In this document: piece by piece, positions 22,567 to 61,580 of the stretch
How the letters are laid out: every line of letters begins with the position of its first letter
How positions within the stretch are numbered: the stretch's first letter is position 1
Translations under genes and position numbers: made by a program
The notes under the pieces: generated by a model
Seen by the model: the letters and a program-made list of their open reading frames with translations, nothing else
What the model was told of the DNA's origin: nothing
Databases searched by the model: none
Assembly (NCBI GenBank): GCA_007026445.1
Contig: VDMD01000004.1
Location: 930,001-994,000, forward strand
DNA length: 64,000 nt
Direction of reading: 5' to 3'
Origin: Schizophyllum amplum
Lineage: Eukaryota; Basidiomycota; Agaricomycetes; Agaricales; Schizophyllaceae

Positions 22567-23162
<596 letters not shown>

Positions 23163-23471
23163 TGTGATGATTTGAGAGTGGGGTGGTGGTGTTGGTGGAA
23201 GCGGTGTTTGAGGGCGCGACGGGGCGAGATGGACGTTGAGGAAAAGGGACGATCGCCGTGGACCTCGTATATTTATACGCGCTGAACGGTCACGTGCGCG
23301 ACTTTTCGACTTTTGTTGATGCGCATCAACAAAAAGACGCGTCGGTGCACAAACGAGGACAAACGCGCCGCGTCCGTATTTATATCGGGTGTCCACCGCT
23401 TTGATCTTTTCATCTCTTGTCCCCGACGCCCACTCCCCACCCCCCATTCGAATTTCCACATCCCATCCGCT
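23163..23471. promoter_or_regulatory. Bidirectional H2A/H2B promoter
   Basis: 309 bp between the two start codons. A TATAAAT box for H2A lies on the - strand at 23271-23277 and a TATTTATAT element for H2B on the + strand at 23378-23386, each roughly 90-110 bp before its ATG. Between them lie gatgcgcatcaac/gttgatgcgcatcaac-like sequences (near 23313-23331) that form a short inverted repeat and could be a shared regulatory site. Confidence 0.75.
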
Positions 23472-24078: not shown

Positions 24079-24505
24079 TGGCATATCTTTCGGATCTATG
24101 TATCGCGCTTCTCTGTACATTAGTTGTATTGTACTCGCTAGCTTATTACCTGGCACTGCTATTCTATGAACTGCGCCTGCGTCTATCATCGCACACCTGT
24201 CGCTCAGCTATGAGGTGTCTTTGAGTGGCGAGCGCCTGACTCGCGGGAAATTCGTCTTTCAACGTTCAGTGTTGTCATTGCGTCTGCAAACATACAGTAG
24301 GTAGTCTACGATTTGGATTTGCAATAACGACGCTGAAGGATTACCGTCCCGCAATACACTGGCAGTGGGAGTGGATGTCACTGGACTGGACGGCCAGCGA
24401 GCGCAAGCACTGATGAGACATGCATCAGCTCCAAGATTGGACGTATAGACACAGAGAATAAAGTTGGGATAAAGTACAGCGCGCGGCCGACAAGACAGGT
24501 ATCGA
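24079..24505. other. Intergenic, 3' flanks of H2B and the SAS4-type gene
   Basis: No coding signal supported. Contains the 3' ends of two convergent transcripts. Confidence 0.45.
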
Positions 24506-40842: not shown

Positions 40843-40852
40843 CGCTCACGGC
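40843..40852. repeat. Left 10-bp target-site duplication of the MULE
   Basis: CGCTCACGGC, repeated exactly at 61571-61580 on the other side of the element. Length fits the 8-11 bp duplications made by Mutator-like transposases. Confidence 0.75.
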
Positions 40853-40878
40853 GGGCCTATGAAATTACCGCGCCGTTG
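40853..40878 (+). repeat. Left terminal inverted repeat of the MULE
   Basis: Contains GAAATTACCGCGCCG; the right end has GAAATTACCGCTCCG in reverse orientation. About 14 of 15 core positions match. Confidence 0.65.
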
Positions 40879-40990
40879 CCGCGCCGTACCGCGCCGTTGC
40901 CGCATCGTACCGCGCCACCTGCCGCTCCGTACCGTGCCCCTTCCGCTGCCTTCTGCTTCGCTCATGCGTAAATCTTCCGCGTCGGCCGTC
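40861..40990 (+). repeat. Subterminal CCGC-rich tandem motif cluster
   Basis: Repeated units of the form (G/A)CCGCGCCGT(T/A)(G/C)CG, for example ccgcgccgttg / ccgcgccgta / ccgcgccgttg, degrading inward. Possible transposase-binding array at the left end of the MULE. Confidence 0.6.
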
Positions 40991-42124: not shown

Positions 42125-45100
42125 CTACGCTATGCCATCCGCAGGCTGGGCCGTCTTTGCGCTTCGCAAGACCCTGTGCATCCGTTGCGGCTGTGGCTTA
42201 GGGCGTGGCTTGGGGCGTGTTCCTGTCCGTTTCGGCATGGGTGTGCAGATCTTGTCGGCTGACGATAATGACTGCCAGTTGTCTCCGAGCTGTTCGCATA
42301 AATCAGCAATCAATCTCAGAAAAACAAGTGACTCCGTGACTAGACGTACTTGACGCTCCTCTTGTTCGCTGACGGTGTCCAGGCCCTCACGCGGCGTGCC
42401 CAATAGGTTTGGGTAGGTCGTATCTGGGTTCCATCCATGCTGGTTCTCGCCGGCGTCAAGACCCCACTGCCAATTTCCTGCCGCACCTGACTCTTTCGAC
42501 CTCTCGAGTATCTTCCTCTCGAAGAGGCGCAAACATTCAGCGTCGACATCCACCCCGCGTCCGCCTGCAGGCCCACTCCATTTCTCCTGGACCTTTGCCT
42601 TCCATCCTTCCTCCATCGAAATGTTACGTCGTGCAGCGATGATGGCGACCTCTGCATGGGCCATTGTCACCTTATTGAACCATTCGAGGGACAAATATGC
42701 GTCCTGGGCGCCGGGAACCTTTAGCCATATCCAGTTGGCAATGCGGGCACGGTCTTCGGGGGAGAGGGGACCTTCGAAGGGCACAGAGCCTGGCGCTATT
42801 GTCAAATTCATGTTCTGTTGGTGTAGGTGTGAGTCAGCTGCGCGCTAGGATTTTCATGCGCAACTCACATCAATGGGTGCTAGCAAGTATGCAATGCATG
42901 GTGATGCCTGTACAAGAGGATCTATGCTGTCAGTGCCGTCAAGGAGGATGCCGGTCAAGGTCTTCAACTGCGCCTGCAGAGTCACACTGATCTCGTCGGT
43001 ATATGGATATTCTTTGAAGCTTGCAACAGTATCTTCAGACCCATGCATCTCCCATGTAGGTGTCCATTTTCCGAACTGCCAGATGCTTCATGTGAGTATA
43101 TCACCCACATAGAACAATCCATGAAGACTCAACACGTATAGCGCGGCGCTCTAAGCGGCGCATCCACAACTCATCCACAATATTGGGCAGCTTGACTTGG
43201 CGAATGAGCTGGAGGTTGGTGTCGCTCAGGCATACATGACGCCCTCGCCACAGCTTGACGGTCCACGTAGTATGCTGATCATCGTGGTCAATGATGCGAC
43301 CAGGATACCAGAACTCGCTGCGAGGGGTTTCTCGTATCAGGCATCCCTGCCCAATGCTGAAAGGAAACACGTAAGTCGTCTGAAATATGTTGATCTTGAA
43401 CTCGATCCTCACATTAAGCGCTGCTGAATAGGGTTCTGGGATTTTTTTGCCAGACTGCGATAGATAGAAAGCCGAGTCACTGGAGTAGAACGGTCAAGAG
43501 CGTCATGAAGCTGAACAAAGAAGAGCGCCAGAGCAAGCAAACAGTACGTACTCATTTGGTGTCATCCTCAACTCAGATAGCGAGCAGTTTGAGCACATAA
43601 ACGGCTCTGATCGCTTGAGCCGGCTTGCCCATCCGTCGCGCTGGCATGCAAGATGGGACCATGACTTGCACATGTGGCACTGCACGACCGGCCCATACTG
43701 TTCGCTATCCTCTCGCAGAAGAAGTGCGTCAACATTCCCCACCATGCCACACCGGCATGCAAGCTTGACCTCATCTTGGGAGTCCTCTTCATCAGAGACA
43801 TCGTGGAGCTGCGAATCGAACACTTGCGGATGTCGGTGAGAAGCCGTGCTGTCCTCCAGGAACTTCAAGACTGCAGAACCTGGTGATGGCGGGGAAGACT
43901 GCCCCCGCACAATGAATTCCGGTGCAGCGGGACTGGAGCTCTGGCCTGGCACCTTCGCAAGTCCATGATTAGTTGCGAGGCGCACTTTGGACTTCTTCTT
44001 CTTGGGTGGTTTGGCTGAGGCCATTGAGAGAGCGGCTTCTTCTGCTGGTGCGGCTGCCGCTATCTCGTTGCTCTTCTGGCTGACGCTGCGCTTGCGTTTG
44101 GTGGGGGAGACTCGCCGTCTCGCTGAGCTGGTGGCTGCAACACTTTTTCTTTTCGGAGTTGTTGCCTTGCTATCCGCTTCGACTGTAATCTCGGCCTTAC
44201 GACCGCGCTTGACTGGTTTGTGGGCCGAGGAATGACCTTCATAAGCGTAAGTAAGTATGCACCTGAACTCCCGTAAAACAGGCGAATAAACCACGCACCA
44301 TCTTTCAGGCCGGCAGTAGCTGGATCACGCTTCGTCGGAGACATCGGAGTCGGTGGACGAGTGGCTACAGAAGCTAGTCAGTATGTAGTGAAAAAGGACG
44401 TAGACAAGACAGTTGCAGCGCACCGTTTTGAGACTCGAAAGTTGCCACATATTCCTGGTACAAGGGGTTGTCTACTTCTTCCACTTCATTGTCCCTGCCG
44501 GTGCGTGGTGCTGATGTAATCCATGATCGTTCGTCCATCGGAAGGAGGCGAAAGTTGGGCTCCTTCATGACTGCATGCGGAAATCGTGGAGGGGGAGCTG
44601 CTGCCATGTCTGCGTCTGCGTTGGCTGCCCAAGCAGGAGAGGGTCCACTGGCGTCTGACAGCTCTATGTCACTGAGTTTGTTGCCGATGTCCTGGACGCG
44701 CCGTGTATAGAAAGCTTGCTGAGCAGATGCACCACCACGCAGGTGGTACACGAAATGCTGCGGCCAAATTGTGTCGCGCCCGTGGACTGTCTCGACATCG
44801 CCTGCAATGCTGGTGCTGACCTCCATGTCTGGCCGCAGTCGCGCCTCTCCACCGTACTGCATTCCATCATGCTGGTAGACGTTCTTCCCATCTGGAGTGA
44901 AGAGCGTCCAGTAGTGTGAGGTTTGCCTGTTGTACACAGACCGGCCTACAATGTCGTACACCAGGCCTCGGTCCTTGTGCGCGTTATGCTCCTTCTTGCT
45001 AAGCGGGTAGAGCCGGGGAGGGACAGTCCACTTGACGTCGCCAAGATCAAGCCCTTCGACGCATAGAACAAGCACCACGGGGATTGAGAGCACAATGTCA

Positions 45101-48100
45101 TCCTCACCCGAAGATGCGCCACCGTCACATACAAGCTCGCCGTCCTTCTGCCGCCAGCACGGTGTGGGTGCGTAAGAGGCAGATGGCAATTTCATGAGGT
45201 GCCGGAAATATTTTGAGGCATCATGGTCGTGAGCGCGAGCTTCGTTGGATGGCAAAGAAACTTGGTAGACAAGCCGAGGTGTCGGTGCAAGCTGGTAATG
45301 GGACTGCCGTCGGGTGCCGCGGGCCATAATAGGTCCAGTGCACATCCTGTACTTGAGCTTTGCGAGCGCGAAATAACTCTCCTGCAGCGTCAAGTTTCGC
45401 TGCGGTGACTGCGCGCTCTTCTGTTGCAAAATTGACGATAGCCAGTACTGATGAAGTCTGTTCAGTACAATGACACCAGTGGCAAGCACGCGATGATTTG
45501 GCACTTACAAAGGGTGAGGACTGTTCGCTGAAGTAACTAATAACTTTGGCCTGCTGCAGGAGTGTACGGAGTTCGTCGCGTCGCTCGGTGAAGGATGTTA
45601 TACGGCCCCGCATGTTCTCCTGAAAGAGGGTGTGACTTTGCGCAGTGGATCCGACATCATCTGAATGCTCGCTATGATAACGGTCGACAATAGCCGCAAA
45701 GAAGACAAAGATGGGTGATGATGGGTCAGCATGCAGGGAATTTTGGTCGGCACGCGGGTAGAAGCTGAGGTTGAAGTCGCCGTCGCGAGAGATTGCGTAG
45801 AACATAAGCTCAAGCCCACAGTCCAGCCAGCATGAGTTGTCGTTCCAGCGCAAACCGGCGCGGCCAGCAGGAGCCGTGGTTGCTTTACGGCTCTTGCGGG
45901 TGGGCTGCGCAGCGGCGGCGACCTCGGCATCTGCGGAGGCCAGGACATCTTCTTTGCTACTGCTGGGCCCCACCAACTGTCTGGCAGTGTCTTTGGGCCT
46001 ACCGTCGTTGCTTCGGTGTGGGTTGGAGGGTTGGGGAATCGGCACCTGGACAGCATTGCGTACTTTCTCAGCTCTTCGGTTTGCCGCCCGTGTCCTCTTG
46101 CTCAGGTCCTCGGCCGCTTCCTCCGCACTAAGCTTCCAAGGCTCGCCGTTCTTGCCGTAGAAGTTCTTCCCTCCCACTACAGCATATATTGTTCAGTTCA
46201 AGAGGGAAATGTCTGGAAAGAGAGATCACGTACGCTTTACATGGTCGTGAGTGTTTTCAAAATATTTGGCCAGCCAGTATAGCGCTTCGAGACCATCAAG
46301 AAGTTGGTATCTCCGTTTGTCGAGCGCGATGTACATTTTCTGGTGCATGGACTCCTGCGGGTTTGTTGTATCAGGTATGCTGTCCCACAATGTCGGTTCC
46401 ATGGCTCGGTCACATTTGAAGAGCATCTGTGCATGAGCTGGGCGCTCCCACCAGTCGAACCAGGGCTTGATGAGCGGAAAGTCCCTGAGAAGAGCGCACG
46501 CAATCTCTTCAAATGCGTTGTATGACTCCACCTTTAGGAGCGACCGTGCCCGCTTCTTGAATTCTTTACACTGAGTAGGAGGAACAACGGCGCTGATCTT
46601 TGAGACGCGCGTCACTTGAGCTCGAAAGTGCTGCTGACAACCCTTGAGTAGACCTTCAGCCTTCAGCGTCATCTCAGCAACGAGGAAGGGGTCTTTGAGG
46701 TGTTTGTCATCAGCGAGGCGGCAAGCAATATATGCGTTGATAAAGCCCTGTCGCTGGGCTTCACTGAAGTCCACCACCTGAAGTGTCGAGATGAGTGAAG
46801 CTTCTGGCGCAGGGTAAGGTGACTTACGTTTGCCAGCATCTCATCGGTGAGTTGTCTCCTCTGCATGTCGCATTCAACCTGCATTGTGTGAAACAGTGTC
46901 GAGAAATGGGAGGCGTAGTGTGTAGCTGTTTGCCCGTTGGAGTACGTCATGAGAACAGGGACCCAACGATGCAGCAGATGGCTGTAGACGACGCTGGTGA
47001 TCAAGACACAGTTCGGTTCATGGAAAAACTTGTGCGCTGCATCGGTAACAATTCCATAGACGGCGTCGCCAATGACATGCATGCGGACTAGCTGGCTGCG
47101 CATAAAGGATGTTTGCATGGAGATGACGGTGACTTTGCCGAAGCAATGAGCTACGAGGAAGTCGGGGCGCTCAGTCTCGAACTTGGCGAAGGAGGTCGCA
47201 AAAGAGCTGGTGGTTTCGGCTTTGTACTTCCGGTGGTAGGCGCGAAGACAGTCCAGATTGTTCAGTATAGGGTTTATCTCCCCCACCGGTGCTCGGTTGC
47301 GATGACCAACAACAAGCGGTAGGCTACCCTTCTCGGGGTACTTGTCGAAGAGCTCGTATAGCTCACCGAGCTCGTCGCTGGTCAGACGATTTGGCATGGG
47401 CCGACTGTGCTGTTTTGTATGCGAGCCGGTGTGAAGGACACGTGCACCATCTCGAAACTCCCAAATTTTGAGCTCGACATTGCACTTGACGTGAACAAGA
47501 GGCGAGTTACAAGTCTGATCTGCGCAAGGCTCCTGCAGTCGCTGCTCTGTTATGTGGTTTTTGGTGCCAGGTCGAATGACGCGCGAGCAGTTCTCGTTGG
47601 TGCATTGAATTGCTCCGAGGCACTTTCTTCGCCGACAACGACCATCCTTCCACGTGAGACCCGAGGGATTGCCACAATGACCGTTCCGTGGAGTGCCACA
47701 GTACTCCATCGCCCAATGAAGGGGGAAGTTCCCACAGGCGACGCGCTGCTCGTGAGAGAGTATTATATCAAGATACTCGTCAATGTAAGGGTTCCACTCA
47801 AACACTTTAGTCGGCAGTGGCGCGGGGGCGGGAAGTGGCACGGGAGGTGCCGCAACGCCAGCGGGGACTTGTAGAGATGCTTCATGGGCCGGCGCGGCAA
47901 TGGGTGGTAGCAGCGGGGCAGCAGGATGTTGCAGCGCGGGAGGCGGCGCTGCATCAGCGGGGGCTGAATAAGACGCTCCGTGGGGCAGCACTACAGCCGG
48001 CGGTGGCGGCGGCGCGGCAGCAGGTGGCGGCGCAGCCGCAGGAAATGGCGTGGGAGGCGTCGTGATCCCATTAGAAACTGGGAGAGAAGCCTGGTTGGGT

Positions 48101-49052
48101 GGGGGACCAGGCGGCGTGGCAGCGGAAGGTGGTGCGGGAGGCGCCGCTACACCAGCGGGGGTTTGTAGAGATGCTCTGTAGGGCAGCACAGGCGGCGGCG
48201 GCGCAGCAGTAGAAAATGGCGCGGGAGGTGCCGCGACGCTAGCGGACGCCGGTTGCGAAACTACCAGATGGGGCGGTACGGCAGCAGGGAGCGGTGCGGG
48301 AGGCATCATGGCTGTTGAAGTGGGGGGACCTAGTGCACGAGGAGCGCTCGGGTTCAACGGATGTAGGGGTGAGCCATCGAATGGAGTTAGTGACCCATCT
48401 GACCATTTGAGGTAGAACTGCAAGGCGGCGAGGGGAGTGGCAGACCATGGCGGGGCCAGTGACCCAGTAAACGGTACGAGTGATCCATCAGGCAAACCGA
48501 CGTAGAGATTCGAGGCTCCCGGCGCCGTGTCCGAGCCCAGACCTATTTGTTGGCCGATGGGAGGTGGTGGATATTGCGGCGTGGAATCTACTTGCGACGA
48601 CACCGTGGGGATAGTCGTGGTGGTAGGATGAGCAGCTGCCATTGATGGACTTACGGACTGTGCGGCCATGGCGGGCGTGACTTGTGGGGTGATAATGTAC
48701 CGGACGATGCGGCCTATCCGGCAAGGTGTGAGTGAGACTGTAGATACTACCCATGCGGATCGTACCATTTGAGTAGCATGGTATGACTGGAAGATAATCA
48801 GTACAACGCAGAAGATAGTTATAATGAGCAAATCAACATACGTTCATCATCGGGAGGGCTCTGTGTTGCAGTTTCATGCACGAGGGGTGGCGGTCCAGAA
48901 ACTGAGCGCAAGCTGTTCCACACACTTTGAAAGATATTCTGCGGAATATTGTCAGTGGAAATGAAGGATTGATTACTTATACGTACAGGCATCAGGGCAG
49001 GGTGGTTATTGAGCAAGAATTCGAGGAGGCAGGCAAGGAAAGCGAGGGACAT
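42125..49052 (-). CDS. Giant MULE transposase fusion: WRKY/GCM1 zinc finger, RNase H transposase, USPL1-like peptidase, PHD, Tudor-like
   Basis: Read from exons joined by ~50-60 nt introns, about 2,000-2,150 residues. Exon 1 begins MSLAFLACLLEFLLNNHPAL; its ATG overlaps the LTR target duplication. A Pro-rich region (48650-47820) follows. The zinc finger (about 47710-47390) has CRRRKCLGAIQCTNENC and VLHTGSHTKQHS. MULE transposase motifs: D1 in YGIVTDAAHKFF (~47050), D2 in VVDFSEAQRQGF (~46770), CQQH (~46640), E in TTNPQESMHQ (~46350). An in-frame intron (46240-46180) without a new ATG joins KNFYGKNGEPWKLSAEE to the peptidase: Cys box NDNSCWLDCGLELMF (~45830), His/Asp box TSHYWTLF...VYQHDGM (~44910). 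A PHD finger (43740-43590; VVQCHMCKSWSHLAC) and a Tudor/BAH-like block (WYPGRIIDHDDQHTTWTVKL, ~43300) follow. The C-terminus is helical then basic. Confidence 0.72.
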
Positions 49053-49055: not shown

Positions 49056-49617
49056 TGTGAGGGGATACGTATAGGACAGTCATTCGATAGCGTAGTTATA
49101 TTGTATACAAGAGCCAGGAGCTCAGCGGACACGTGATCGCGCCCGGTAACGCCACCGGGACGCGTGGGAATATTCATCTTTGTTCTTTGCCTCTCACTGC
49201 GTGACGCTCGCCTCGTACGGCGCCCTGCCCGGGATACGGCCGCTCGCTTCGACATAGCGCCCTGCCCGGGAGACCGCCGTTCGCTACGACATAGCGCCCC
49301 GCTAGGGTCACCGCCGTTCGCTACGACATAGCGCCCTCGCTAGGGATACAGCCGTCCGCTACGACATAGCGCCCCGCTCGGGTCACGGCCGCTCGCCTCG
49401 TACGGCGCCCTTGTCAGGGATACGTGTACCGGTCGTACCGTCACCACGCCGTACTCGGGGACTCGAGTCGTTCGCTACGTACAGCGCCCTCGGCCGGGCA
49501 CAGCCGTCCAGGTGCGCTGCACCGATCACTCACACTCACGCGTCCTACAGGTACCGACGGTCTCTCGTTCTGAGACTGATCTCCGGCGAGACCTTTACAT
49601 TCACGAACGCGCTCACA
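49056..49617 (+). repeat. 5' LTR
   Basis: TGTGAG...CTCACA, 562 bp. Contains a tandem array of 36-38 bp units (49206-49424) built on gctacgacatagcgccc. Position-by-position reading against the 3' LTR found no difference. Confidence 0.95.
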
Positions 49618-49618
49618 A

Positions 49619-49630
49619 TGGTGGCATGAC
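49619..49630 (+). promoter_or_regulatory. Candidate primer-binding site
   Basis: tggtggcatgac begins two bases after the LTR. TGGT is complementary to the ACCA end of a tRNA; which tRNA cannot be told without a tRNA set. Confidence 0.5.
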
Positions 49631-49793
49631 CGCGGAGGTCATCAAGCCGGAAGATAACGCGCGCGCGCTTAGGCGCTACACATGTGCGCACCGCGCGCTA
49701 TCGATGGATAGCCGAACGACACGCCGCCGCGCGTCTGCCTGCTGGCTATTCCTTCTTTCCTCCCTCCTCCACGTAACCACATCCTCTCTCCCC

Positions 49794-52700
49794 ATGTCCT
49801 ACCCGCCAAAGCGTCCTACGGCCAAGAGCGATGCTCCTCGTACGCCGACCCGCAACGAAGGAAGCGGACGCTCCACGTCCTTGGGATTAGGAAGAGCGGG
49901 GGGCGCAGCCGCCGACCCGACACGGAAGCCCTCGCGCGCCCCGATCGACGCGACACCAGCCTTGACGCGTAGCCGCCTCAAGAACGACGGCAGCGCGACT
50001 CTGTACCCAGAACGTAGCGATCCCGACCGCGATGCCGGAAGCTCGAGAGGTCGAGATTCGAGTCGGGATCAGACGCGGAAGAGCTCGTTAGCCTCGGACG
50101 CTCGGGAACCAACCGCTGGGTCTCGCGTTATTTGGCAGACGGCAACTCCGTTTCCACCCAGCAGTTCACCGACCCCTTCGCTGTCCGCAGCTATACCGAA
50201 GTTCGGGACGCTAGATGCTTTACCGATCCTGCCGCCCACGGCTACTCCCGCGGCGGGAACGAAGGGGCCAGCCAAGGCGTTGGGGACGCTGGGGGGCAAG
50301 GCCCGTGCGGAGAGGACAGAGGATCCAGGCGCCGTAGACCTTACGGACCCTCTGGACTACCCTCCCCGAAGAGAGTTTAGTGACGACGCCATGCCGTCCA
50401 TTACGGCTGCCCTCGACAAGCTACATGCTGTCCGCGGAAAGCGTCGGGAGGCCGAACGGGAGAAGTCTCCGCGCCACATCGCCCTGCCCGCATCGCATCC
50501 TGGGAGCTCGGTCGTCTCAAGGGAGGCCTCGGTGTCTCGCCGATCCAGCAGGAGTCGGCGCGACCGCTCGCGCGAAGCGAGCAGCGGCCTGACCAGTCTC
50601 TCTACCTCGAGGACGACCTCCGTCGCGGGACGAGATAGTGCGTCTCGTGATAAGGGCAAGCGACGAGAGTCTTCCGTTCAATCAAGGGACGGTACGGAAG
50701 CCCCCGAGTACCCTTACGTCTTGGATGCCGAATGGCTACGATGGGCGAATGTCCGAGACGAACCCCTCGAGCATTCGGTGAAGTTCCGACACCCTGCGCC
50801 CAAGGAGGACCCGGTCGACCGTCTGTTCGGGGGAAAGGGCGGTACGATGGCTGGATTTAGCGCCGCCAATACGAACCTGCTCCGAAATGCCCTTATTCGG
50901 TGGCTATCCGGCACGATCAACTTCGATTGGGGCGTCAGCCTTGACGACGAATGCCTAACCCTCAGCGTGTTCGATATTAGCCGCGAAAGAGAGGTAATAC
51001 GGTTATCTGGAACGGAGCTGCGAAGAGCGAATGAAGTCAGCTACAAGCTCCAAGATATGCTACTTCTACGCATCGGGCGTTCGGCCGTGGCCGTACAACA
51101 GGTCCTCGACGCGCTCCTTCGCTTCGGTGGCCGTCCCCCTCAGGAAGGATTCAGCTTCGACCGAGGCCACGTACTGCTGCGATCATTGCAGCGAAGTGCC
51201 TCGCGTTCCGAGGTCGCCACGGTAGCCGCTACCTTATGCTATCGCTTTGGACAAGCCCGGACTCACATCCGCGATATGTTCGGACAGCTACAGTATGCCC
51301 GCCTGGGCTATGTTACTAAGGAATTCGACGTCACGGGGGAAGTCGAATCCACCGCGGCCACATTACGAGAACAGTACGGAGAAGGAACCGTACGACAGGT
51401 CCTCGCTCGTTACGCGGCGAGGGACGACTACAACAAGATGTATCGAGAGATCAGCCCGGTGCACGCGCGGCACCTCGAGGAGGAGGTGACGACGGGTAGG
51501 GTTCAAGTGCCGACGGTCGCGGCTAGGTTACATCCGCCGGCGTCTCGCACTCCACAATTGCAGCAGCGTCTGATGAAGGTGGTACGCGAGAGCTCGCCGC
51601 CCAGCGGCGCCAGTTACCGTGCCGTCCTCGAGGAGGCGACAATACTCGAGCGCCGCACCGCGCCGCCGCGACTGACCGCTCCACCGTCACGACCTAGGAC
51701 TCGCTCCCCGTCTCGCGATGTTTCCGTACCGCGCCGGGAAAGGAGCTCCGTTCCCTCGCGAGACGCTTCCCGGCTACCTACGGAGCGTGCGAGGGAAGAA
51801 CCGCGCCCAAGAACCCGCTCCGCGCGTCCCTACGCGGCGGAAGCTGAAATCATCAGCGCGATGGGATACCGCGAGGGGGATGCGAACCCCGTCATGCCAG
51901 GGATGGCTATACCTTCAAGACCGGAAGGACGAGCTCGACGCAGCGCCACTCCGCAGTCCAGGACGGACTCCGCTTCCTCTCGTCGTTCGAGCCTTCGACC
52001 GGACGATAGCATCAGTGCCGCAGGCTACCCGAGTGGGGGGCCATTGTTCCCGCGAGAACGAAGCGCGAATCGCGCCGCGACGCACTCGCGCTCCGCCCGC
52101 CCGGACGAAGGACGATCAAGCCAACGTCGCGAGGAGCGGACAGAGGAGACCAACTTGAACGACGTGCTAACGAGCGTAGCTATGGGGCGAGGTCTGGTCC
52201 AATCGGGAGCGCGCAGACAAGAGGAGAAACGCGACCCACCTCCTCACCTGCGGCATGAGCGAGACTCTGAGCAGCGAGGACAAGGCCGGGCACGTTCGCG
52301 CAGTCGCGGACGGCGTCGCGAGCGTCGAGGGAGATCACGCGAGGAAGAGGCCGACGGCGCTACGCGTCCAAGTCGCCGCGCACCGCGACGAAATGAGCCG
52401 CCGCCCTCCGAACCGAGCAGAGCGGGAAGCGAAGCGCGGCCCGGCCGAGACGATAAGTCTCCTCCATCGCCGCCCTCAGGAGGTGACGAACGCTCCAAGG
52501 CGAGCTCTAGGAAGGAGAAGAAGAAGAGGCGTAAGGCGAGCAGTGATGAGGAGATAGAGTTCAAGGTCAAGACTACCCTGAACATCTCCGAACTGCCGCA
52601 GTGGGACGGGAAGAACCTCATGGAGTACATCGCTGAGATCAGCGTCAAGACCTTGCTCGGTCGAGCTATGCGCGCCGCCCTGCCCAAGGCGCTACCTCAG

Positions 52701-55217
52701 AGGTGGACCGGCGACGCCCTCGAATGGTTCATGACCATGAGAGTGGAGGATCAGCTCGAGCTCACCCAGAGTCTGAATGCTCTCATCATGGGCATCAAGG
52801 ACCACTATATGACGGTCGAGTGGGTCAACGACCGTACGTACGAGTTTGAGATGATGCGTTTCCGGCAGCGCGGCCGCGAGCGCGAGACGCCGGAACAGTT
52901 CTTGCGGCGACGATTCCGCTACATAATGTTCCTCTACCCCTCCGATCTTGCCGGCGCGACGGCTGTAGGGCGCATCCTGAAGAACGCCCCGTATCCATGG
53001 CTGAGGCACCTGTCGGGGCACGCCTCCGGTGTCGAGAACGTCAAGCAGATGCTCGATCGCGCTTATGCCGATCGACCGATACTCATGGCCGCCTGGCGGG
53101 AGGCCCTTAATGAGCCGTCCTTCCGAGAGCATCATCATGTTGCCGAGCCGGGACATACCTTTCGACGGAAGTTCCGCAAGGAAGGCATGACTGGTGAAGT
53201 CGAGAGCAACGAGGAGCTGCGTGCGATAGAGGAAGTGAGCGGGGAGTTTGACGGAGCGGAGCAGGAGGACGAAGCGCTAGAGCTCGAGGCGCACGCCGCG
53301 ACGAGCAGGAAGCCGGAAGCGCCGAGGAAGAAGACCGACTCGCCCTTCAGGGCTAACGCCGTGCCCGCGACCAGCTGGCCGAAGGGCCGCACTGAGAAGG
53401 GCTACTCGTTCGCGAGGGACGATACTATCCGCAGCAAGCGCCCCCCTAGGGACGGCTGCTACATCTGCACGAGCCCCTTGCATTTTGCGAAGGACTGTTC
53501 TCACTACGAGAAGTGGAAATTCTTATATCATATCAATCTCGTCGAGAGTGTCGTCGTACTATCTGTCATGCAGCAGCAGGATGAGGACTACCAGTTGCTC
53601 CTGCAGGAGCTAGTCGATAATGACAATGAGGTTTCCGCTTATGTCGCGCTCGCTGAGCAAGTTGATGCCGTTGAGACGGCTACGCCTGTGCATTCTGAGA
53701 GCAACTCTTCCATGCGCACGAAGGACCCCTCCTTCAACGCGAAGAAACGGCGTAACCGTCCGACGTCGGCCTCCAAAGGGAAACAGCGCGCGACGCCAGA
53801 CAAGACGACCATACCCAGATCGGAAAGACGACGATCACCTCGGCGACTCTCTGACAGCGTCTTCACTGCTGAAAACAAGCGTCAACTGCCTGAAGGCTAC
53901 AGCTCATTGGGTTCGAGGGCTCTACGCATACCGGTGTGCTTCCAAACCCTGAACTCGGCCCCTAAGGACGCGCGGCTAGACTCAGGCGCGGACATCACGT
54001 TGCTATCGGAGGAGGAGCTCCTCTCGTGGGCGGAGCCGCCCGTGCTTAAGACTGGCATGCGCATGAAGCTCTTCCATCTTACAGGCGATGCCAAGGTGCT
54101 AGGATATGTACGCTTCACGATGTTCGCGCGCACCACCGCGAACGACGCAGTAAAGTTCGCGGTGGAAGCGTACGTCGTGAGAGGCATGAAGGTGCCACTG
54201 CTCTTGGGAGAGGACTTCCAGTCCGCCTACGAGCTAGGCGTCACTCGCCGTGCAACTGGACGGAGTCTCGTCACCATCGGTGACTCAGGCCGTCAGATCC
54301 ATGCATCATCTGCACGAGACGTCAAGGTCGGATTCAACGTGCATTATGCGTTCACGGGCCAGGCGCGCCAACGCGGCGCTCAGCGACGCAAGGCTCAACT
54401 GCGCGCGAGGCGCTACCCGACGGAACACGAAGAAGTCTTTGCGGCCGTCGATACGGTCTTACAACCGGGCGCTGTCCATAACGTCGCTATACGGGGGCCC
54501 TTCGAAGGTCGAAGTGACTGGCTAGTCGAGAAGATAGCCATAGGAGGCATGGACGCTTCGCTAATGTCCGCGCCGACCACTTGGATCGACTCGGCGGACG
54601 CCAAGATTCCAATCGCCAACCCGTCGACTCGACCTCAGTATTTACGAGCGGGCGACGTCGTCGGGTACCTGCTTGACCCGTCGCGCGACCTGGACAGAGC
54701 GAAGACGGACGCGGAGAAGGCACGGCTAGTCCAGTCTGTGGAAGCCATAGAGCGCTATATCGATGGGACACTGCACGACAAGGACATGGAGTCTGCCCAC
54801 CAGAGCTCGCAGGACGAACAGGAACCCATTGGTCACGCCCCACCGCCTGCGGACGAGCCGCTATGGGGCCCCAAGACCTCCGAATTGCCTCCAGAGATTG
54901 AAGCGCTTCGTGACATCGACATCAGTCCTGATGTCCCGGCCGACAGACGCCCTCAGATAGAGGATCTCCTGCAACGACACGCTCGCGCGTTCGGCATCGA
55001 CGGACGCTTGGGTGACGTACCCGCTGAAGTGCCTATCAAGACGGTACCCGAGGCGATTCCGGTCAGCCTGCCAACTTACGGCGCGTCGCCTGCGAAACGG
55101 GCTATCATAGAGAACCAAGTCAATGAGTGGCTAGGAAAGGAAGTAATCGAACCGTCCTGCAGTCCGTGCAGCTTGTGCTGTACCACGGATTGTAAACCGT
55201 CCCGACAATTTACATAA
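49794..55217 (+). CDS. Retrotransposon Gag-protease polyprotein, truncated at the start of reverse transcriptase
   Basis: Starts MSYPPKRPTAKSDAPRTPTR; the frame is open from within the LTR, but earlier ATGs lie in the LTR or primer site. Residues 1-900 are Ser/Arg/Pro-rich and probably disordered. A capsid-like helical region follows (LPQWDGKNLMEYIAEISVKT near residue 930 to PSFREHHHVAEPGH near 1120). The zinc knuckle CYICTSPLHFAKDC (CX2CX4HX4C) is at about 1222-1235, and the protease active site ARLDSGADITLLSEEE around Asp1396. Near 1768 the RT entry motif KRAIIENQVNEWLGKEVIEP appears. Codons after about 55167 (SLCCTTDCKPSRQFT) come from the nested element, so the natural polyprotein is cut there. 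The N-terminal region is long for a Gypsy Gag. Confidence 0.85.
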   Translation: MSYPPKRPTAKSDAPRTPTRNEGSGRSTSLGLGRAGGAAADPTRKPSRAPIDATPALTRSRLKNDGSATLYPERSDPDRDAGSSRGRDSSRDQTRKSSLASDAREPTAGSRVIWQTATPFPPSSSPTPSLSAAIPKFGTLDALPILPPTATPAAGTKGPAKALGTLGGKARAERTEDPGAVDLTDPLDYPPRREFSDDAMPSITAALDKLHAVRGKRREAEREKSPRHIALPASHPGSSVVSREASVSRRSSRSRRDRSREASSGLTSLSTSRTTSVAGRDSASRDKGKRRESSVQSRDGTEAPEYPYVLDAEWLRWANVRDEPLEHSVKFRHPAPKEDPVDRLFGGKGGTMAGFSAANTNLLRNALIRWLSGTINFDWGVSLDDECLTLSVFDISREREVIRLSGTELRRANEVSYKLQDMLLLRIGRSAVAVQQVLDALLRFGGRPPQEGFSFDRGHVLLRSLQRSASRSEVATVAATLCYRFGQARTHIRDMFGQLQYARLGYVTKEFDVTGEVESTAATLREQYGEGTVRQVLARYAARDDYNKMYREISPVHARHLEEEVTTGRVQVPTVAARLHPPASRTPQLQQRLMKVVRESSPPSGASYRAVLEEATILERRTAPPRLTAPPSRPRTRSPSRDVSVPRRERSSVPSRDASRLPTERAREEPRPRTRSARPYAAEAEIISAMGYREGDANPVMPGMAIPSRPEGRARRSATPQSRTDSASSRRSSLRPDDSISAAGYPSGGPLFPRERSANRAATHSRSARPDEGRSSQRREERTEETNLNDVLTSVAMGRGLVQSGARRQEEKRDPPPHLRHERDSEQRGQGRARSRSRGRRRERRGRSREEEADGATRPSRRAPRRNEPPPSEPSRAGSEARPGRDDKSPPSPPSGGDERSKASSRKEKKKRRKASSDEEIEFKVKTTLNISELPQWDGKNLMEYIAEISVKTLLGRAMRAALPKALPQRWTGDALEWFMTMRVEDQLELTQSLNALIMGIKDHYMTVEWVNDRTYEFEMMRFRQRGRERETPEQFLRRRFRYIMFLYPSDLAGATAVGRILKNAPYPWLRHLSGHASGVENVKQMLDRAYADRPILMAAWREALNEPSFREHHHVAEPGHTFRRKFRKEGMTGEVESNEELRAIEEVSGEFDGAEQEDEALELEAHAATSRKPEAPRKKTDSPFRANAVPATSWPKGRTEKGYSFARDDTIRSKRPPRDGCYICTSPLHFAKDCSHYEKWKFLYHINLVESVVVLSVMQQQDEDYQLLLQELVDNDNEVSAYVALAEQVDAVETATPVHSESNSSMRTKDPSFNAKKRRNRPTSASKGKQRATPDKTTIPRSERRRSPRRLSDSVFTAENKRQLPEGYSSLGSRALRIPVCFQTLNSAPKDARLDSGADITLLSEEELLSWAEPPVLKTGMRMKLFHLTGDAKVLGYVRFTMFARTTANDAVKFAVEAYVVRGMKVPLLLGEDFQSAYELGVTRRATGRSLVTIGDSGRQIHASSARDVKVGFNVHYAFTGQARQRGAQRRKAQLRARRYPTEHEEVFAAVDTVLQPGAVHNVAIRGPFEGRSDWLVEKIAIGGMDASLMSAPTTWIDSADAKIPIANPSTRPQYLRAGDVVGYLLDPSRDLDRAKTDAEKARLVQSVEAIERYIDGTLHDKDMESAHQSSQDEQEPIGHAPPPADEPLWGPKTSELPPEIEALRDIDISPDVPADRRPQIEDLLQRHARAFGIDGRLGDVPAEVPIKTVPEAIPVSLPTYGASPAKRAIIENQVNEWLGKEVIEPSCSPCSLCCTTDCKPSRQFT

Positions 55218-58200
55218 CCCATCTTGCAATCTGTACGTGAACTTCACGGGGCCGGCAGATGCCGATCCGCGAGCCCGCCGTTGTCCCCCGGGGTGCCGGG
55301 TGATGCCCAAAACGGGCACCGACGGCTGATAAAGCCAGATAATCGCGGTGCGTGGCCTTCCCGACGCGTCGGGAGGCTCACGCGCCGCACTGATGCGCTG
55401 TCGGGTGACGTCACACCGACGCTCTGGCGCGTGCGCGGCGCGTCGCGCCTGCCGCCGCCGCCGCCACGCGTCGTTGGGCACGCGTAAAATCGAGAAAATG
55501 TACATTATAGTATATATAGGTGGTTTAGTATTGTATAAGTAAAGGGGAGGGGCGAGGGACAGTGAAACGGAGAGAAAAGGGCAGGCGAAAATTTTCGCCC
55601 GCCCTCGCGGCACTCGCATTGGTCTGGTGGAGGGACGGGGGTGTGTATAAGGGTGGTAGATAATGACGAGGAGTCCTCTGCGCTGGATAATCCCATCGCC
55701 GCGCCCGTGAACAGACGCGGGCTGGATGGGCAGCGCGATCGAGGGGGACGGCGTATACGCATCGCTCGGATGAGCCAGCGAGCGCGCGAAGCGCGACGAG
55801 CACCTGTGCAGTGCTCCCAAGGCATAAGCCCCCGCTCGCCGCGCGCTGCGCGCCTCTGTGCATGCGTGCGCGCCGCCCGTGACTGTGCACAGCGCGATCA
55901 GCCCCCGCAGTGTAGCCTGCGAGCGCGACGGCTGGCACCTCAGACCACGCATGCCCATGCGTCTAGCGCCGTGAGAGGGACGCATAGACGGTGGGGGGAG
56001 CGCGGTTGCGCAAGGGTACGACGCGCGCCTGACGCCGCGCTGTGGGCCGTACCGACCGACGTGTGTAGACGCATCGACGACGGGCAGAGCAGCGGCAGGG
56101 CAGGGGATGGTGAGGAGGGGTGGGTGGGTGGTGTGGTAGGCGAGGCGCAAGCCTCTGCTGTTGCGTACTGCAAACGCTGTTGCGCGGGAGGTTGCGAACG
56201 CCGCCTCCAATGGAGGCGGCGTTCGATCACTTCGTTAGCACTGGTTGTGAAGATATAGTTTGTTAACACGCACCTAGGGGGCTCAGCAGAGCCCCATTCC
56301 CTCTAAGTACAGCCTCCTGCGCGGCTTGGTTGAAGATCCGACGACGTTGACGGACGTCGGGGTGGACGCGCGAGAAGAGGCGGCAACGGCGAGAGTGACA
56401 TCACGCGCGATGCGCGACACAGTCACCTGGGCGATATGCACGGGCTCAAAAGAGCAGAGGTAAGGGGCAGGGCAGCTGTGCGGGGCGCGATGGCACGTTG
56501 GTGGTGGCGATAGGTATGTGGTGTTCTTCGGGACCGCAGAAGGCGTTCTTTGGGACCGCACGGATGCCGGTCCGGGCGTCGGACCGACATCCGAGAGCGG
56601 TCCTCGTCGCCTTCGACGGTCTCGGGAACACCCCGCAATGTGCCTAATGCTGTTCTGAGGCCTGTATCGTGTCTAGAGTAGGTTAAACACTCACTTTGGA
56701 AAATTTGAAGGGAATCGAACGGTGGGAAGGGGGTGAAGTAGTGAGTGAGTGAGATGAGGGAGTGATTCTAGCTCTTTTGCACGTTGTGCGTCTCCAGCGA
56801 GAAGCCATTCTCAGTCATTCTCTGCAGGTATTTCCCTTCCAAAATTTACAGAATCGTAGCCAACTGATGTGTTCACATACTGTATATACTACTTCTATAC
56901 TACGGGACTTAGATGTGTAAGATAAAGGATGTTAGGTGGGGGACTGCTCCGAATCTGCTCTATGTAATCATCCCACGTCTGTATACTTCATTCGAAGATT
57001 ATCCATGGCTATTAAGTAGCTATTTATTTATGTCTAGACTACCTGAGGATAATATTTCAGTGAGTACGGAAGTCGATGGGCCACATCGCTCGCGCGCGCC
57101 GCCGAACGCGCTCATTCGGACGCGTTCGTGACGTGACGGTCACGCATCCTCCTCCTTCTCGACCTCCATCCCGCCGCCGCCGGGTCGCCGCAAAACGCGC
57201 CGAGCGCCTAGAATACGAAGGGAATCGGGCATAGGTGCCCCATAGGTGCGTTGACTAGCTATATGACGCGTTAATTATGCTGATACTTTGTTTTTTTCGG
57301 TGTGCAGACCTGAGGCGGCCGGGCACGCGTTCGCGCCGCCTCAGAGAGCCCCTCCACTGCGGCCTCTACCACCTTCGCCCACAGTGAGGTAGGGGACAAT
57401 GCAGAGGGGCCCTCTGAGGCGATGTGAACGCGCGCGCAGCCACCTGTAGGCTGCGCAGCGCAGACAGGTGTCAAGGCCGCTAGGCGCCAGCCTCCCTCCT
57501 CCTCATCAATCCGTCAACAGGAGCTCGGATAGTGCTCTTCACCATATCCCCCTCACACTGCACACCGTTCACCGCCGCGTGCGCGCTCACCATCGTCACC
57601 AACCCGCATACACGCGCGACGAGGGTAGCAACGCAGTCCTGCGCATCCGGCCCCCCTCACGCGTTTTTGCGACCCCTCGGGTCGCATAGCGTATGTCTTG
57701 GTACTGGCCAGTGTGCGAGAGGCTACGTTGGCAGCTACGAGCGAAGGCAGTAGCGCAAGCTGTGCACAGCCGCACAGCGCGCGCGCCACCTTCGCGCTTC
57801 GGCGTGAAGTCTGGCGCGGCGCTCGCCATGCTTGCGTGATGTGTCGCTACGCACGACGCTCGCTACGTGTGTAGCCGCGCGCTGCGCGCCGCCCAACGCG
57901 CCCAACGTCACGCCCCCGCCCCCGCCCCGATCACGCCGCCCGTTCGTAGCGCGCGCGTCTTGCGGCACAACGTAGGGAATCTCTAGCGCAGACGGTCCTA
58001 CTCACCTACCTTCCTCACCTCCGCCATATCCCGCCCCCTCCCCCGAGCAACGCGAGCGTGTCGAAGGCGAGCGAAAATTTTTGCTCGCCTTTTTTACGTG
58101 TCGTAGAGCTCTCCGCCCCTCCATTCACCCATATACAACACTGTGTACTTCTTACATAGAATATATACATTGATTTTGATTTTACACGCCCCCGACGACG

Positions 58201-58501
58201 CGCGGCGGCGGCGGCGGCAGGCGCGACGCGCCGCGCACGCGTCGGGGCGTCGGTGTGACGTCAGCCATCAGCGCATCAGCGCGGCACGCGAGCTTCCCGA
58301 CGCGTTGGGCGGCTCGCGTGCCGCGTTTATCTACCTTTATCAGCCGACGGTGCCCGTTATGGGCATCGCCCGGCACCCCGGAGGGCAGCGGCGAGCTCAC
58401 GGAACGGCACTTGCCGGCCCCGTGAAGTTCACGTACAGATTGCAAGATGAGTTATGTATATTGTCGGGTCGGTTTACAATCCAGGGTACAGCAAAAGGTG
58501 C
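55168..58501. mobile_element. Nested 3.3-kb element with ~430-bp inverted repeats, no coding capacity seen
   Basis: The left arm (about 55168-55600) and right arm (about 58070-58501) are inverted copies at roughly 75-85% by eye: gctgtacc, ggattgtaaacc, cccgacaat, cttgcaatctgtacgtgaac, cacggggccggca and later gcgaaaattttcgc are shared in order. The centre is very GC-rich with CpG-rich low-complexity tracts and no ORF with a recognisable domain. No target duplication is evident at its edges, and the flanking retrotransposon has lost its RT-integrase part at the same point, so it may mark an insertion plus deletion or a rearranged family-specific structure. Confidence 0.65.
56195..56225. repeat. 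Perfect hairpin, 14-bp arms, 3-nt loop
   Basis: The left arm CGAACGCCGCCTCC and its exact reverse complement flank AAT. It sits in the central part of the nested TIR element. Confidence 0.85.
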
Positions 58502-58504
58502 GTT

Positions 58505-59269
58505 ATGTACGACGTGTACCTCTCGTTCGATACGGCCGATGGCGCGGAGGCCGCGCGGACCATCATGGGTCGCCCCTGGCCTATCCCCGCGCGCGGTACG
58601 CTCAGTCGTCGCCCGGAGGAGCGCGTCTTCCGCGCGTCCCGCATCGATCGTATCGACGACATCGACTTGGGCATTGTCGAGCAGCATTCCCTGGCGGAGA
58701 GGATGCCATGGCAGGCGTTGTTCGACGCCTCTATGGCTGTACGCGACGGCCGTGCGCCCCCGCCCGGCCCCAGCGCGTCGACCAGCTCATCATCCTTGCG
58801 AGGTCGGCAGTCGCCGCCACCATCGGCCGTACGGCGCGGCGGCAGCTCTTGGCGGGCAGCCGACTATAGTCCACGTCGCCGTGATGCCTCCTCCCCTGCG
58901 CGGGCCTCGCCGCCTCGCGATAGGCAGGCTCCTGCTTCGTCGTCGACGGCATCCGCAGGCCCACCCTTGCCCAGTCGTTTCGGCGACTACGCTCGCATCA
59001 TCGAGCGTGACGGTCAGGTGTACATCAACCTCGAGGACGTCCTGGGCGGCCGCGCGGCAGTCTCGCGCGACGACAGTCCGCCGCGCGCGCCCCGACGCTC
59101 TCTCGCGGATCGACTCTCCGACCCGGACGAGTCGCGCAACGGGAAGGGCAAGCAGCGGCAGCGGCGTCGTCGAGCGTACGAGCCGTATGACCCCACACCT
59201 GGGCCTTCGCGTCGCCGCGGGCCGTCTCCCCCGCCGCCGCCGTCCGCGGGACTCTCCGCTCGCGCGTGA
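58505..59269 (+). CDS. 3' ORF of the LTR element, unrecognised, basic and Ser/Pro-rich
   Basis: Starts MYDVYLSFDTADGAEAARTI; 254 codons. An N-terminal part with mixed composition (RIDRIDDIDLGIVEQHSLAE) leads to a Ser/Pro/Arg-rich tail ending PPPPPSAGLSARA. No integrase, RNase H, chromodomain or envelope motif is visible. The Ser/Arg-rich composition resembles the N-terminal part of this element's Gag, so it could be a structural accessory protein. The start lies immediately after the nested element, so its natural 5' end may be missing. Confidence 0.5.
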   Translation: MYDVYLSFDTADGAEAARTIMGRPWPIPARGTLSRRPEERVFRASRIDRIDDIDLGIVEQHSLAERMPWQALFDASMAVRDGRAPPPGPSASTSSSSLRGRQSPPPSAVRRGGSSWRAADYSPRRRDASSPARASPPRDRQAPASSSTASAGPPLPSRFGDYARIIERDGQVYINLEDVLGGRAAVSRDDSPPRAPRRSLADRLSDPDESRNGKGKQRQRRRRAYEPYDPTPGPSRRRGPSPPPPPSAGLSARA

Positions 59270-59351
59270 GCTTGCCCTCGGGCTACTTCAAGGTGCTTCG
59301 CGCCTTTTTCTTGCCACGGCTACCGCACGCTCCAGTCTCTTGGGGGGGCGT

Positions 59352-59913
59352 TGTGAGGGGATACGTATAGGACAGTCATTCGATAGCGTAGTTATATTGT
59401 ATACAAGAGCCAGGAGCTCAGCGGACACGTGATCGCGCCCGGTAACGCCACCGGGACGCGTGGGAATATTCATCTTTGTTCTTTGCCTCTCACTGCGTGA
59501 CGCTCGCCTCGTACGGCGCCCTGCCCGGGATACGGCCGCTCGCTTCGACATAGCGCCCTGCCCGGGAGACCGCCGTTCGCTACGACATAGCGCCCCGCTA
59601 GGGTCACCGCCGTTCGCTACGACATAGCGCCCTCGCTAGGGATACAGCCGTCCGCTACGACATAGCGCCCCGCTCGGGTCACGGCCGCTCGCCTCGTACG
59701 GCGCCCTTGTCAGGGATACGTGTACCGGTCGTACCGTCACCACGCCGTACTCGGGGACTCGAGTCGTTCGCTACGTACAGCGCCCTCGGCCGGGCACAGC
59801 CGTCCAGGTGCGCTGCACCGATCACTCACACTCACGCGTCCTACAGGTACCGACGGTCTCTCGTTCTGAGACTGATCTCCGGCGAGACCTTTACATTCAC
59901 GAACGCGCTCACA
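59352..59913 (+). repeat. 3' LTR
   Basis: 562 bp, same start, end and internal tandem array (59502-59720) as the 5' LTR; no difference seen by eye. Confidence 0.95.
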
Positions 59914-60134: not shown

Positions 60135-60310
60135 CCTACCGCTCCCTCCCGTTTTGCTGCCGCTCCGTACATTTCGTTGCCGCTCCCCACCGCTTCGCTG
60201 CCGCTCCCACCGCTTCGCTGCCGCTCCCCCCCGCACCACTACCGCTCCGCTGCCGCGCCACTACTGCATCACTTCCGCACCACTACTGCATCACGCCTGC
60301 GCCTCTGCCG
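60135..60310 (+). repeat. Degenerate CCGCTCC tandem repeat
   Basis: Units such as ccgcttcgctgccgctcc and gcaccactactgcatca recur several times in tandem with small variations. It lies in the right arm of the MULE and shares the CCGCTCC word with the left subterminal cluster, in the same orientation. Confidence 0.7.
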
Positions 60311-61160
60311 CTTCACTGCAGTACCTTACCGTACCACAACGCACATCCTATGCGTCGCTCTGGCGTGGTTTTCTCGCATGTTTTGAGGACCTTGTCCGAG
60401 CCCTCAGACACGCCATGCACATCCTGCCTTTGCAAACAGTGTGATAATCATTGCTCAGGCTATGTGCTCTGTTGGATGATATTCAAAATAAGAAAGCAGC
60501 GAAAACAAAGATAACCGATGAATAGTAGAGGACGTACAACTTGTCAAAAGATGGTGCATGACCAACGTGAAAGATGAATGTAAGCAACCAGCCAAAGAGT
60601 GGGCTGACAGCCCGACCGCAATGCGACGCAAGCTAAGAGGCTTGAAGTAGGTGATGGTTGAACATCGGTCGGAGAGTCTGTCAGTGTCACACACTTCCAC
60701 GGCCTTTGGGCGCGTAGGTCTTCCGTCTTCTCTAGCAGTCCTTGGATCGCTTGGATCACTATTGCTCAGGCCTCGGTAGCCCATGCGTGAGGTCGCATTT
60801 GCCCGCGCGAGAGTCTCAAGCACAAGTCCTTCGACGGAACTTGCCGATAACTGCATCCATCAGCTTAATAATCGAACAGAGTTTTCGGGGATCTCAGGCC
60901 ACAGTCCCGAAACAGTCCGGACGCACGACTTCTTAGGTCACGGGGAACTCACAAAGCCTCCCAATAAGTATGTGTAAGGGCAACCCTAAGAGGTGACACT
61001 CCCGGAGGCCACGCGCTGCAGAGAGGAGAACCAAAGATAAATAATCTATAGAATACGATGTGGAAGGAAGCGCACCAGAATCAAAGAAAACAAGTGTAAA
61101 GTTCTCCTTCTGCAGATGGCGCTGTGTGACGTCACCTGTAACAGTATGACTCAGAACCAC

Positions 61161-61217: not shown

Positions 61218-61545
61218 TTGCATATGACATCATCGCGGAGAAAGTCCAGACAGTCCCCTTGAAGCTTGAAGACTCGAGCTGCCTTTGGGAGACAATTGGG
61301 AGACCATGTCTGCCTCCGCAAACTGTACCCTGCCGGCGCCGCAGCGTTCGCGCGCTTAGTGATGTTCGAACTTCATGTCTTCGTGGAGCTTCTGGAGCCG
61401 ATATCGATGAGTAGGAAAGGTGGGTGGCGTTCGTATAGGTTAATATGATATGTAGTGAAAGCAGTTAAGTAGGAAGAAGTGAAGCGGTAGACTGGCGCGG
61501 GAACGGCGCGGCCGTGACGCGGTTGTGACGCGACACGGGGCGTGA

Positions 61546-61570
61546 GCGGAGCGGTAATTTCTCGCGCCCC
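61546..61570 (-). repeat. Right terminal inverted repeat of the MULE
   Basis: Reverse strand reads GGGGCGCGAGAAATTACCGC followed by TCCG; it pairs with the left end. Confidence 0.65.
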
Positions 61571-61580
61571 CGCTCACGGC
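61571..61580. repeat. Right 10-bp target-site duplication of the MULE
   Basis: CGCTCACGGC, identical to 40843-40852. Confidence 0.75.

Follow-up and report, generated by a model that had tools for sequence, protein, structure and literature searches.

We analyzed a 64,000-nucleotide stretch of the Schizophyllum amplum genome (contig VDMD01000004.1, positions 930,001 to 994,000 of the forward strand; hereafter the window) and found that a minus-strand gene within it, predicted to encode a transposase, a peptidase-like domain and a PHD finger, lies inside a transposon, as the ends of the element show. The element is probably a low-copy, cut-and-paste DNA transposon of Mutator type that encodes a single transposase-peptidase-PHD protein of about 2,060 residues. 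An earlier note on this DNA had proposed that the gene belongs to a transposon, and the element ends and target-site duplication found here bear this out. The predicted product begins with a proline-rich N-terminus, after which lie a GCM-type zinc finger and then a transposase core that has D-D-E and CX2H motifs. A linker leads to a peptidase-like domain opening with NSCWLDC, and a second, basic linker leads on to a PHD finger of C4HC3 type. A possible Tudor-like module comes next, and the C-terminal domain belongs to no family (Table 1). At least one further related gene is present in the genome (49.65 Mb, 309 contigs), as two near-identical inverted copies on contig C112, and all copy counts from the genome search are lower bounds. 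In this relative the PHD finger precedes the Tudor-like and then the C-terminal part, just as in the window gene.

Ends and extent of the element

The element spans 40853-61570, which is 20.7 kb at present and about 9.9 kb without a nested retrotransposon. Its ends were read from the sequence once the ends of the C112 element, which is bounded by GGGCC..AAATCGCCGTATGG ends and a 9-bp duplication (GCTTGTTCT), were known. Since each element has a duplication of its own (10 bp in the window, 9 bp on C112) and the two have a similar end, we take both to be Mutator-type insertions. Within each element the inverted ends agree at 21 of 30 bp (window, counted from 40852) and 24 of 30 bp (C112). The end pattern GGGCNNNNGAAATTACCGCNCCG was matched with 0 mismatches only at the two element ends across the 49.65 Mb, with one further place at 2 mismatches, and the reversed control of the window element's own end pattern gave two matches in the genome. 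The C112 end pattern, allowing up to 2 mismatches, was found at six genome sites (four on C112, one at C244:927789 and one on C26 with 2 mismatches), and its reversed control had zero matches in the genome. BLAST searches for inverted repeats between the flanks, one of which compared the flanks to the left and right of the long terminal repeat (LTR) retrotransposon, did not single out the element ends.

When we scanned the window blindly for an 11-bp inverted match combined with a 9-bp direct repeat, the single match was the pair at 40843/61571. The repeats and the duplication could in principle be coincidental, as one match was also present in 2 of 30 simulated windows and, in 84 kb of real sequence, the scan also matched two places inside a 1.5-kb inverted repeat. 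The scan is thus modest evidence by itself, and the ends are strong because the left one matches the C112 end. The pair is nevertheless the sole match in the window and brackets the gene. Its duplication has 10 bp where the scan asked for 9, and at the left end it matches the C112 element, which was delimited independently, so we give coincidence a negligible probability. The arms of the 1.5-kb inverted repeat are 98.3% identical and lie about 27 kb apart (L019:3684-5209 and window 22571-24099).

The sister element on C112 is a 23.3-kb composite (C112:1257817-1281079), in which an 11.4-kb unit and its inverted copy have one pair of 9-bp duplications outside them and a 253-bp end piece is repeated ahead of each unit; it may be a genuine macro-transposon or an assembly effect. 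There is also a lone end of the C112 family 2.2 kb to the left of the window (C244:927788, L019:7788; 42 bp at 97.6%), for which we found neither a partner end at 2 or fewer mismatches nor another copy of the flanking 9-mer.

Gene model and transposase core

The earlier note had started the gene at 49052, an ATG that sits 3 bp from the LTR. Comparison with the relative moves the start, probably to the ATG at 48992, with an exon 1 of 6 bases followed by an intron at 48986-48939 that the same comparison proposes; residue numbers given here count from the model that starts at 49052. The 11 introns are 48 to 104 bp long, and ten of them have GT..AG ends and matching phases when checked by script, in agreement with the note's view that they are competent for splicing. 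Introns common to both genes are found at NVVDFSEA (phase 0), at the junction between transposase and peptidase (phase 1), before the YWLSS/TWLMT stretch (phase 0) and, by eye, before FGKW/LGKW (phase 0). The intron within the peptidase is placed at 45508-45448, with the exon restarting at 45447, according to the relative; a model with two introns there (45508-45458 and 45352-45292) was dropped after alignment with the relative in favor of the single one.

All domains are very probably joined on one predicted polypeptide, as the earlier note had claimed, and the motifs that it named (the GCM set, D-D-E with CX2H, CWLDC, SHY, HD, PHD and WYPGRI...WTVKLW) are all present on the minus strand. A single protein with the GCM finger, the D-D-E/CX2H transposase and the PHD finger is upheld by the diverged relative and by Pfam matches to GCM and PHD that score below their cut-offs. 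One could instead suppose that a transposase gene and a neighboring chromatin/peptidase gene downstream of it were misread as one, given that the joined frame is read from genomic sequence alone and that the relative, unlike the window gene, carries methionine codons shortly after the junction. However, the only gap between the halves is an intron of 53 bp (relative) or 57 bp (window) that has the same position and phase in both members, and in the window gene there are zero in-frame methionines from this intron to the Cys box of the peptidase, so that the earlier statement that the junction is in frame and has no new ATG stands. The linker motif NDGRP(K/M)DTA(R/A)QLVG is also kept in both genes. 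On intron phase and conservation we reject the two-gene reading, which we judge to be very improbable, and return to a single fused protein.

The residues of catalytic type in the transposase region, D636 (47043), D710 (46771), C754-x2-H757 and E849 (46354), are invariant in both members, and C/DX2H is a sign of Mutator, hAT and P transposases. From this sequence pattern we consider a catalytic transposase fold to be very likely. The length of the duplication, the inverted ends and the CX2H motif are, at the level of sequence, of Mutator type, and the GCM finger supports this. Mutator-like transposons make duplications of 8-11 bp, a range that includes those of both elements. The GCM profile (PF03615, cut-off 25 bits) matches the relative at E=2.2e-4 (21.6 bits) and the window at E=0.024 (15 bits), or 0.16 with a longer stretch (12.4 bits), so that all GCM scores lie below the cut-off; a search of the whole genome with PF03615 found the two C112 copies only, at 20.3 bits. 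Pfam scans of the transposase contained no KDZ or CxC domain.

Downstream of the peptidase-like domain, the C4HC3 pattern of the PHD finger is complete in the window, and its PF00628 scores are 19.6 bits (window) and 23.1 bits (relative), both under the 24-bit cut-off. The Tudor-like module proposed in the earlier note is conserved in the relative, yet the call is weak and unproven: for the window, Pfam gives only DUF4537 at E=0.091, and for the relative it gives zero matches. The C-terminal domain of the relative has zero Pfam matches at E up to 10.

Over the stretch that begins with the proline-rich N-terminus and ends a little beyond the peptidase, the window gene and the relative share the same residue in 436 of 1229 alignment columns (35%), more than chance would give, and 133 columns are gaps. 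Nonsynonymous and synonymous divergence (dN and dS) are 0.60 and 3.17, the latter close to saturation, in the transposase region, and dN is 0.63 with saturated dS in the peptidase. In both regions dN lies below dS, a sign of selection on the nucleotide changes; as dN is similar in both regions, the peptidase is conserved about as well as the transposase. A domesticated host gene of transposon origin, no longer a mobile element, would also fit the one copy in which the gene is found, its uninterrupted transposase and peptidase frames and the dN values below dS. Conservation between two transposon families would look alike, though, and ends and a duplication are recognizable at both elements; the 9-bp duplication that flanks the sister element is its own, so that this element has moved. 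We therefore hold domestication to be improbable and keep to a mobile element. Searches for relatives with the transposase and peptidase alignments in viral contigs, and with the transposase alignment in contigs of prokaryote genomes, found none.

Just upstream, the nested LTR retrotransposon is inserted 63 bp from the predicted ATG, and its position and identical ends indicate that this gene copy was recently separated from its upstream region. The retrotransposon has an open reading frame of 1957 residues, in which a zinc knuckle of gag type and a motif resembling a protease can be made out by eye; this frame has no Pfam match at E 0.01, and no reverse-transcriptase frame was seen after it.

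Table 1. Positions of the element, its gene and protein parts, and the inserted retrotransposon in the window.
Feature	Position	Strand	Basis or remark
Transposase-peptidase-PHD gene	42125..48992	-	11 introns; ATG 48992, alternative ATG 49052, stop at 42125; splice phases and C112 relative
GCM-type (WRKY-GCM1) zinc finger	47398..47658	-	Cys/His set; PF03615
Transposase region, intron included	46234..47805	-	40% identity to relative; D, D, C, H, E invariant
Junction intron (transposase/peptidase)	46177..46233	-	57 bp, phase 1; position and phase same in relative
USPL1/USP-like peptidase domain (putative)	44692..45865	-	Cys1004 45832, His1289 44916, Asp1305 44868; intron 45508-45448
PHD finger, C4HC3	43584..43757	-	PF00628 E=9.5e-4 (window), 7.6e-5 (relative)
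Tudor-like candidate module (GQGCLIR..WYPGRI..WTVKLW)	43197..43358	-	51% identical in relative
Conserved C-terminal domain (FERKILE...AGNWQWGLDAG), family-less	42125..43075	-	44-57% identity in relative
Left target-site duplication CGCTCACGGC	40843..40852		10-mer twice in window, here and at 61571, never on other strand
Left terminal inverted repeat GGGCCTATGAAATTACCG...	40853..40882	+	Sole window site within 3 edits of C112 element's end
Subterminal tandem repeat, 21-bp unit	40866..40938		Tandem Repeats Finder
Subterminal minisatellites, 20-22-bp units	60139..60337		
Right terminal inverted repeat, carries GAAATTACCGC	61541..61570	-	11-mer once per strand in window
Right target-site duplication CGCTCACGGC	61571..61580		Second window copy of the 10-mer
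Nested LTR retrotransposon	49056..59913		Target-site duplication ATAAA; two ends match over 564 bp at 100%; limits and duplication by eye

A putative USPL1-like domain between transposase and PHD finger

In the peptidase-like domain, the Cys, His and Asp residues are invariant in the two family members, which are only 40% identical. The SHY His is separated from the HD Asp by 16 residues in both members, and the same spacing from His to Asp/Asn is found in two distinct segments of solved USP structures. The CWLDC box is identical to the USPL1 box of PDB 7zju and 7p99, and the relative has CWLDT at this place. When the Cys-box segment was compared to shuffled sequences, as high a score was reached in 2 of 5000 shuffles for the window and in 8 of 5000 for the relative. 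The sole Pfam match of the relative's domain is PF15499 (USPL1, C98), which aligns from profile position 7, over the Cys box. Judged from these motifs, a USP-type peptidase fold is likely; for the activity of the putative peptidase on SUMO or ubiquitin, we see the chances as evenly balanced. A search of the genome with PF15499 for a host gene resembling USPL1 gave one weak match (E=0.185), at neither locus.

Several observations weigh against the reading of this element as a Mutator-type transposon whose protein carries a USPL1-like peptidase. The transposase has no match to the Pfam MULE (Mutator-like element) profile PF10551 in protein scans of either the window or the relative, and its profile, compared to solved structures, gives only a match at chance level. 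PF10551 matches seven other places in the genome, six of them over the cut-off, and none of them is at the window gene or on C112. The earlier designation as a MULE holds to the extent that the duplication, the ends and the CX2H motif fit, but PF10551 is absent, and we therefore call the element Mutator-type and place it in no named MULE group. For the peptidase, the shuffle test of the Cys box was made after CWLDC had been noticed, and the PF15499 match, which is seen in the relative only, has E=0.062 and 13.4 bits compared to a cut-off of 27; because of this score we term the domain USPL1-like and do not file it as C98. The window peptidase has no Pfam match, and comparison of the peptidase to solved structures gave no match or one at chance level. 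The His-box segment is the best site in both domains, but in a BLOSUM test it does not rise above shuffles (1827 of 5000 for the window, 4828 of 5000 for the relative), so that the USPL1-like peptidase of the earlier note is borne out statistically at its Cys box and not at its His box.

The element and its gene also have features that speak against this reading. At its right end, the window element differs from the C112 end by more than 5 edits, and the inverted ends agree over about 30 bp only (over 100 bp, the agreement is 54 in the window and 51 in C112). At about 43430-43345, the window exon reads through the site of an intron in the relative with its phase out of step, by eye; this mismatch near 43400 may be a true frame break, a sequencing error or an alternative splice. 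Four positions separate the two C112 copies. Two of them are single-base indels, by which one copy loses its frame (L012 ~8680 and 9286); one indel lies in the PHD finger, through which the other copy is open. The breaks in this left copy may reflect recent decay or sequencing error. The family as found is tiny and comprises, as lower bounds, the element in the window, the composite on C112 and a single lone end; it may therefore be old or dying. All conclusions rest on two independent sequences, and the gene model is known here from DNA.

The weaknesses of the His box, together with the missing Pfam match of the window copy and the lack of a convincing PDB match, are what one would expect if the transposon were the same and its middle domain had lost peptidase activity or never had it, serving instead to bind SUMO or ubiquitin or as a structural part. 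The invariant Cys, His and Asp at 40% identity, the shuffle result for the Cys box and the alignment of PF15499 over that box argue otherwise, and we regard an inactive domain as unlikely. The preferred reading thus remains a Mutator-type transposon encoding a transposase, a peptidase and a PHD finger in one protein.

Known transposase-peptidase combinations and possible function

Transposases accompanied by peptidases of the ubiquitin/SUMO type have been described before. Ginger1 transposases carry a C-terminal Ulp1 or OTU peptidase, and Ginger1-9_HM has both Ulp1 and a PHD finger, according to the available part of the Ginger paper (PMC2836005). The window protein resembles Ginger1 in having a transposase with a (here putative) C-terminal cysteine peptidase of the ubiquitin/SUMO type and, as in Ginger1-9_HM, a PHD finger; it differs in that the Ginger1 transposase is of the Gypsy-integrase type, the peptidase is Ulp1 or OTU, and no GCM finger is described in the available part of that paper (PMC2836005). 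The same source, as far as it was available, states that some Mutator elements code for Ulp1 (PMC2836005), and the available parts of three papers together name KI-MULE and elements of melon, rice and hydra with Ulp1, and MuDR-6_HM with OTU (PMC2836005, PMC2528002, PMC6446971). The Ulp domain of KI-MULE runs in reverse orientation and is unfused, and the WRKY-GCM1 motif is reported in elements of the Jittery family (both from the available text of PMC2528002). The window element is similar to the Mutator elements with Ulp1 or OTU in being a Mutator-type transposon with a ubiquitin-like peptidase, putative in this case. Compared to those with Ulp1, its putative peptidase has the order Cys-His-Asp, with the Cys box first, and is USPL1-like; in Ulp1, the catalytic Cys comes last. 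Elsewhere in this genome, Ulp1 peptidase matches (PF02902; eight over the cut-off) are found on contigs C68, C223, C101, C102 and C288 and MULE matches on contigs C157, C101, C301, C293 and C245, with a MULE and a Ulp1 match about 118 kb apart on C101.

Other systems share some of these features. USPL1 itself, a SUMO isopeptidase (PF15499, PDB 7zju/7p99), has the CWLDC box in common with the window protein but is a cellular enzyme and not borne by a transposon. Rehavkus, an outgroup of MULEs, likewise has a 9-bp target-site duplication, one open reading frame, a PHD finger and a minisatellite near an end; it is, however, listed for Arthropoda and Annelida, and the likeness to the window element is one of description only (available part of PMC6446971). 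The words peptidase and Ulp1 are absent from the main text of PMC6446971. The Trichomonas vaginalis protein XP_001314237.1 combines Transposase_11 with Peptidase C19 in the available text of PMC2836005; it has a USP-class peptidase with a transposase, as is proposed here, but the transposase is of another family, and the protein is known to us from this mention alone. Fungal transposons with TET/JBP, for which escape from silencing has been proposed, include Kyakuja, Zisupton, Plavaka, hAT and other lineages (PMC12730594, available part). As is proposed for the window element, they are fungal DNA transposons with a captured chromatin-related enzyme, whereas the enzyme in their case is a DNA dioxygenase (same part of PMC12730594). 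The words protease, ubiquitin, PHD and GCM are absent from the main text of PMC12730594.

Among the matches listed in the open literature, with no fungal protein database included, we found no publication that combines a USPL1-like peptidase with a GCM-finger transposase. The earlier note knew of no description of the architecture, and the USPL1-like/GCM combination does appear to be undescribed; however, Ginger1 with Ulp1 or OTU (one with a PHD finger) and Mutator elements with Ulp1 are in print (PMC2836005, in its available part). A transposase with a ubiquitin/SUMO-type peptidase and a PHD finger is thus a kind already known, and the variant with a USPL1-like domain in a Mutator-type element with a GCM finger appears to be new.

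In the mechanism that we propose, the GCM finger would bind the element ends and the RNase H-type core would cut and join DNA. The middle domain would be a USPL1/USP-type cysteine isopeptidase that strips SUMO or ubiquitin from the transposase itself; alternatively, it could act on proteins of silencing and repair that are present at the element. The PHD finger, perhaps with the Tudor-like module, would dock the complex on histones and so bias which chromatin is opened or entered. The earlier note had suggested that a transposon equipped in this way could shield its transposase from decay or choose its chromatin targets, and both roles are hypothetical. That the peptidase serves transposition or escape from silencing is, in our analysis, conceivable at a little under even chances. 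A more specific version, to which we give somewhat less credence, is that a separate Mutator-type lineage captured a USPL1-type SUMO isopeptidase, independently of the Ulp1 and OTU captures, and that an in-frame fusion placed it after a GCM-finger transposase and ahead of the PHD/Tudor readers, such that a single protein would bind the ends, cut DNA, strip SUMO from factors of silencing or repair and read histone marks.

The presence of Ulp1 and OTU peptidases alongside unrelated transposases has been read as a hint that protein tags matter in transposition, and a possible action of these peptidases on repair factors while an element moves has been suggested (PMC2836005, Discussion and other available parts). 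If it is true, a Mutator-type transposase fused to a USPL1-like domain would mean that the same activity was captured once more, probably independently, by way of another enzyme class. As all parts are on one protein and can be broken singly, this hint becomes testable. Taken together, these findings suggest that some jumping genes carry their own tools for dealing with the protein tags and the chromatin of their hosts.

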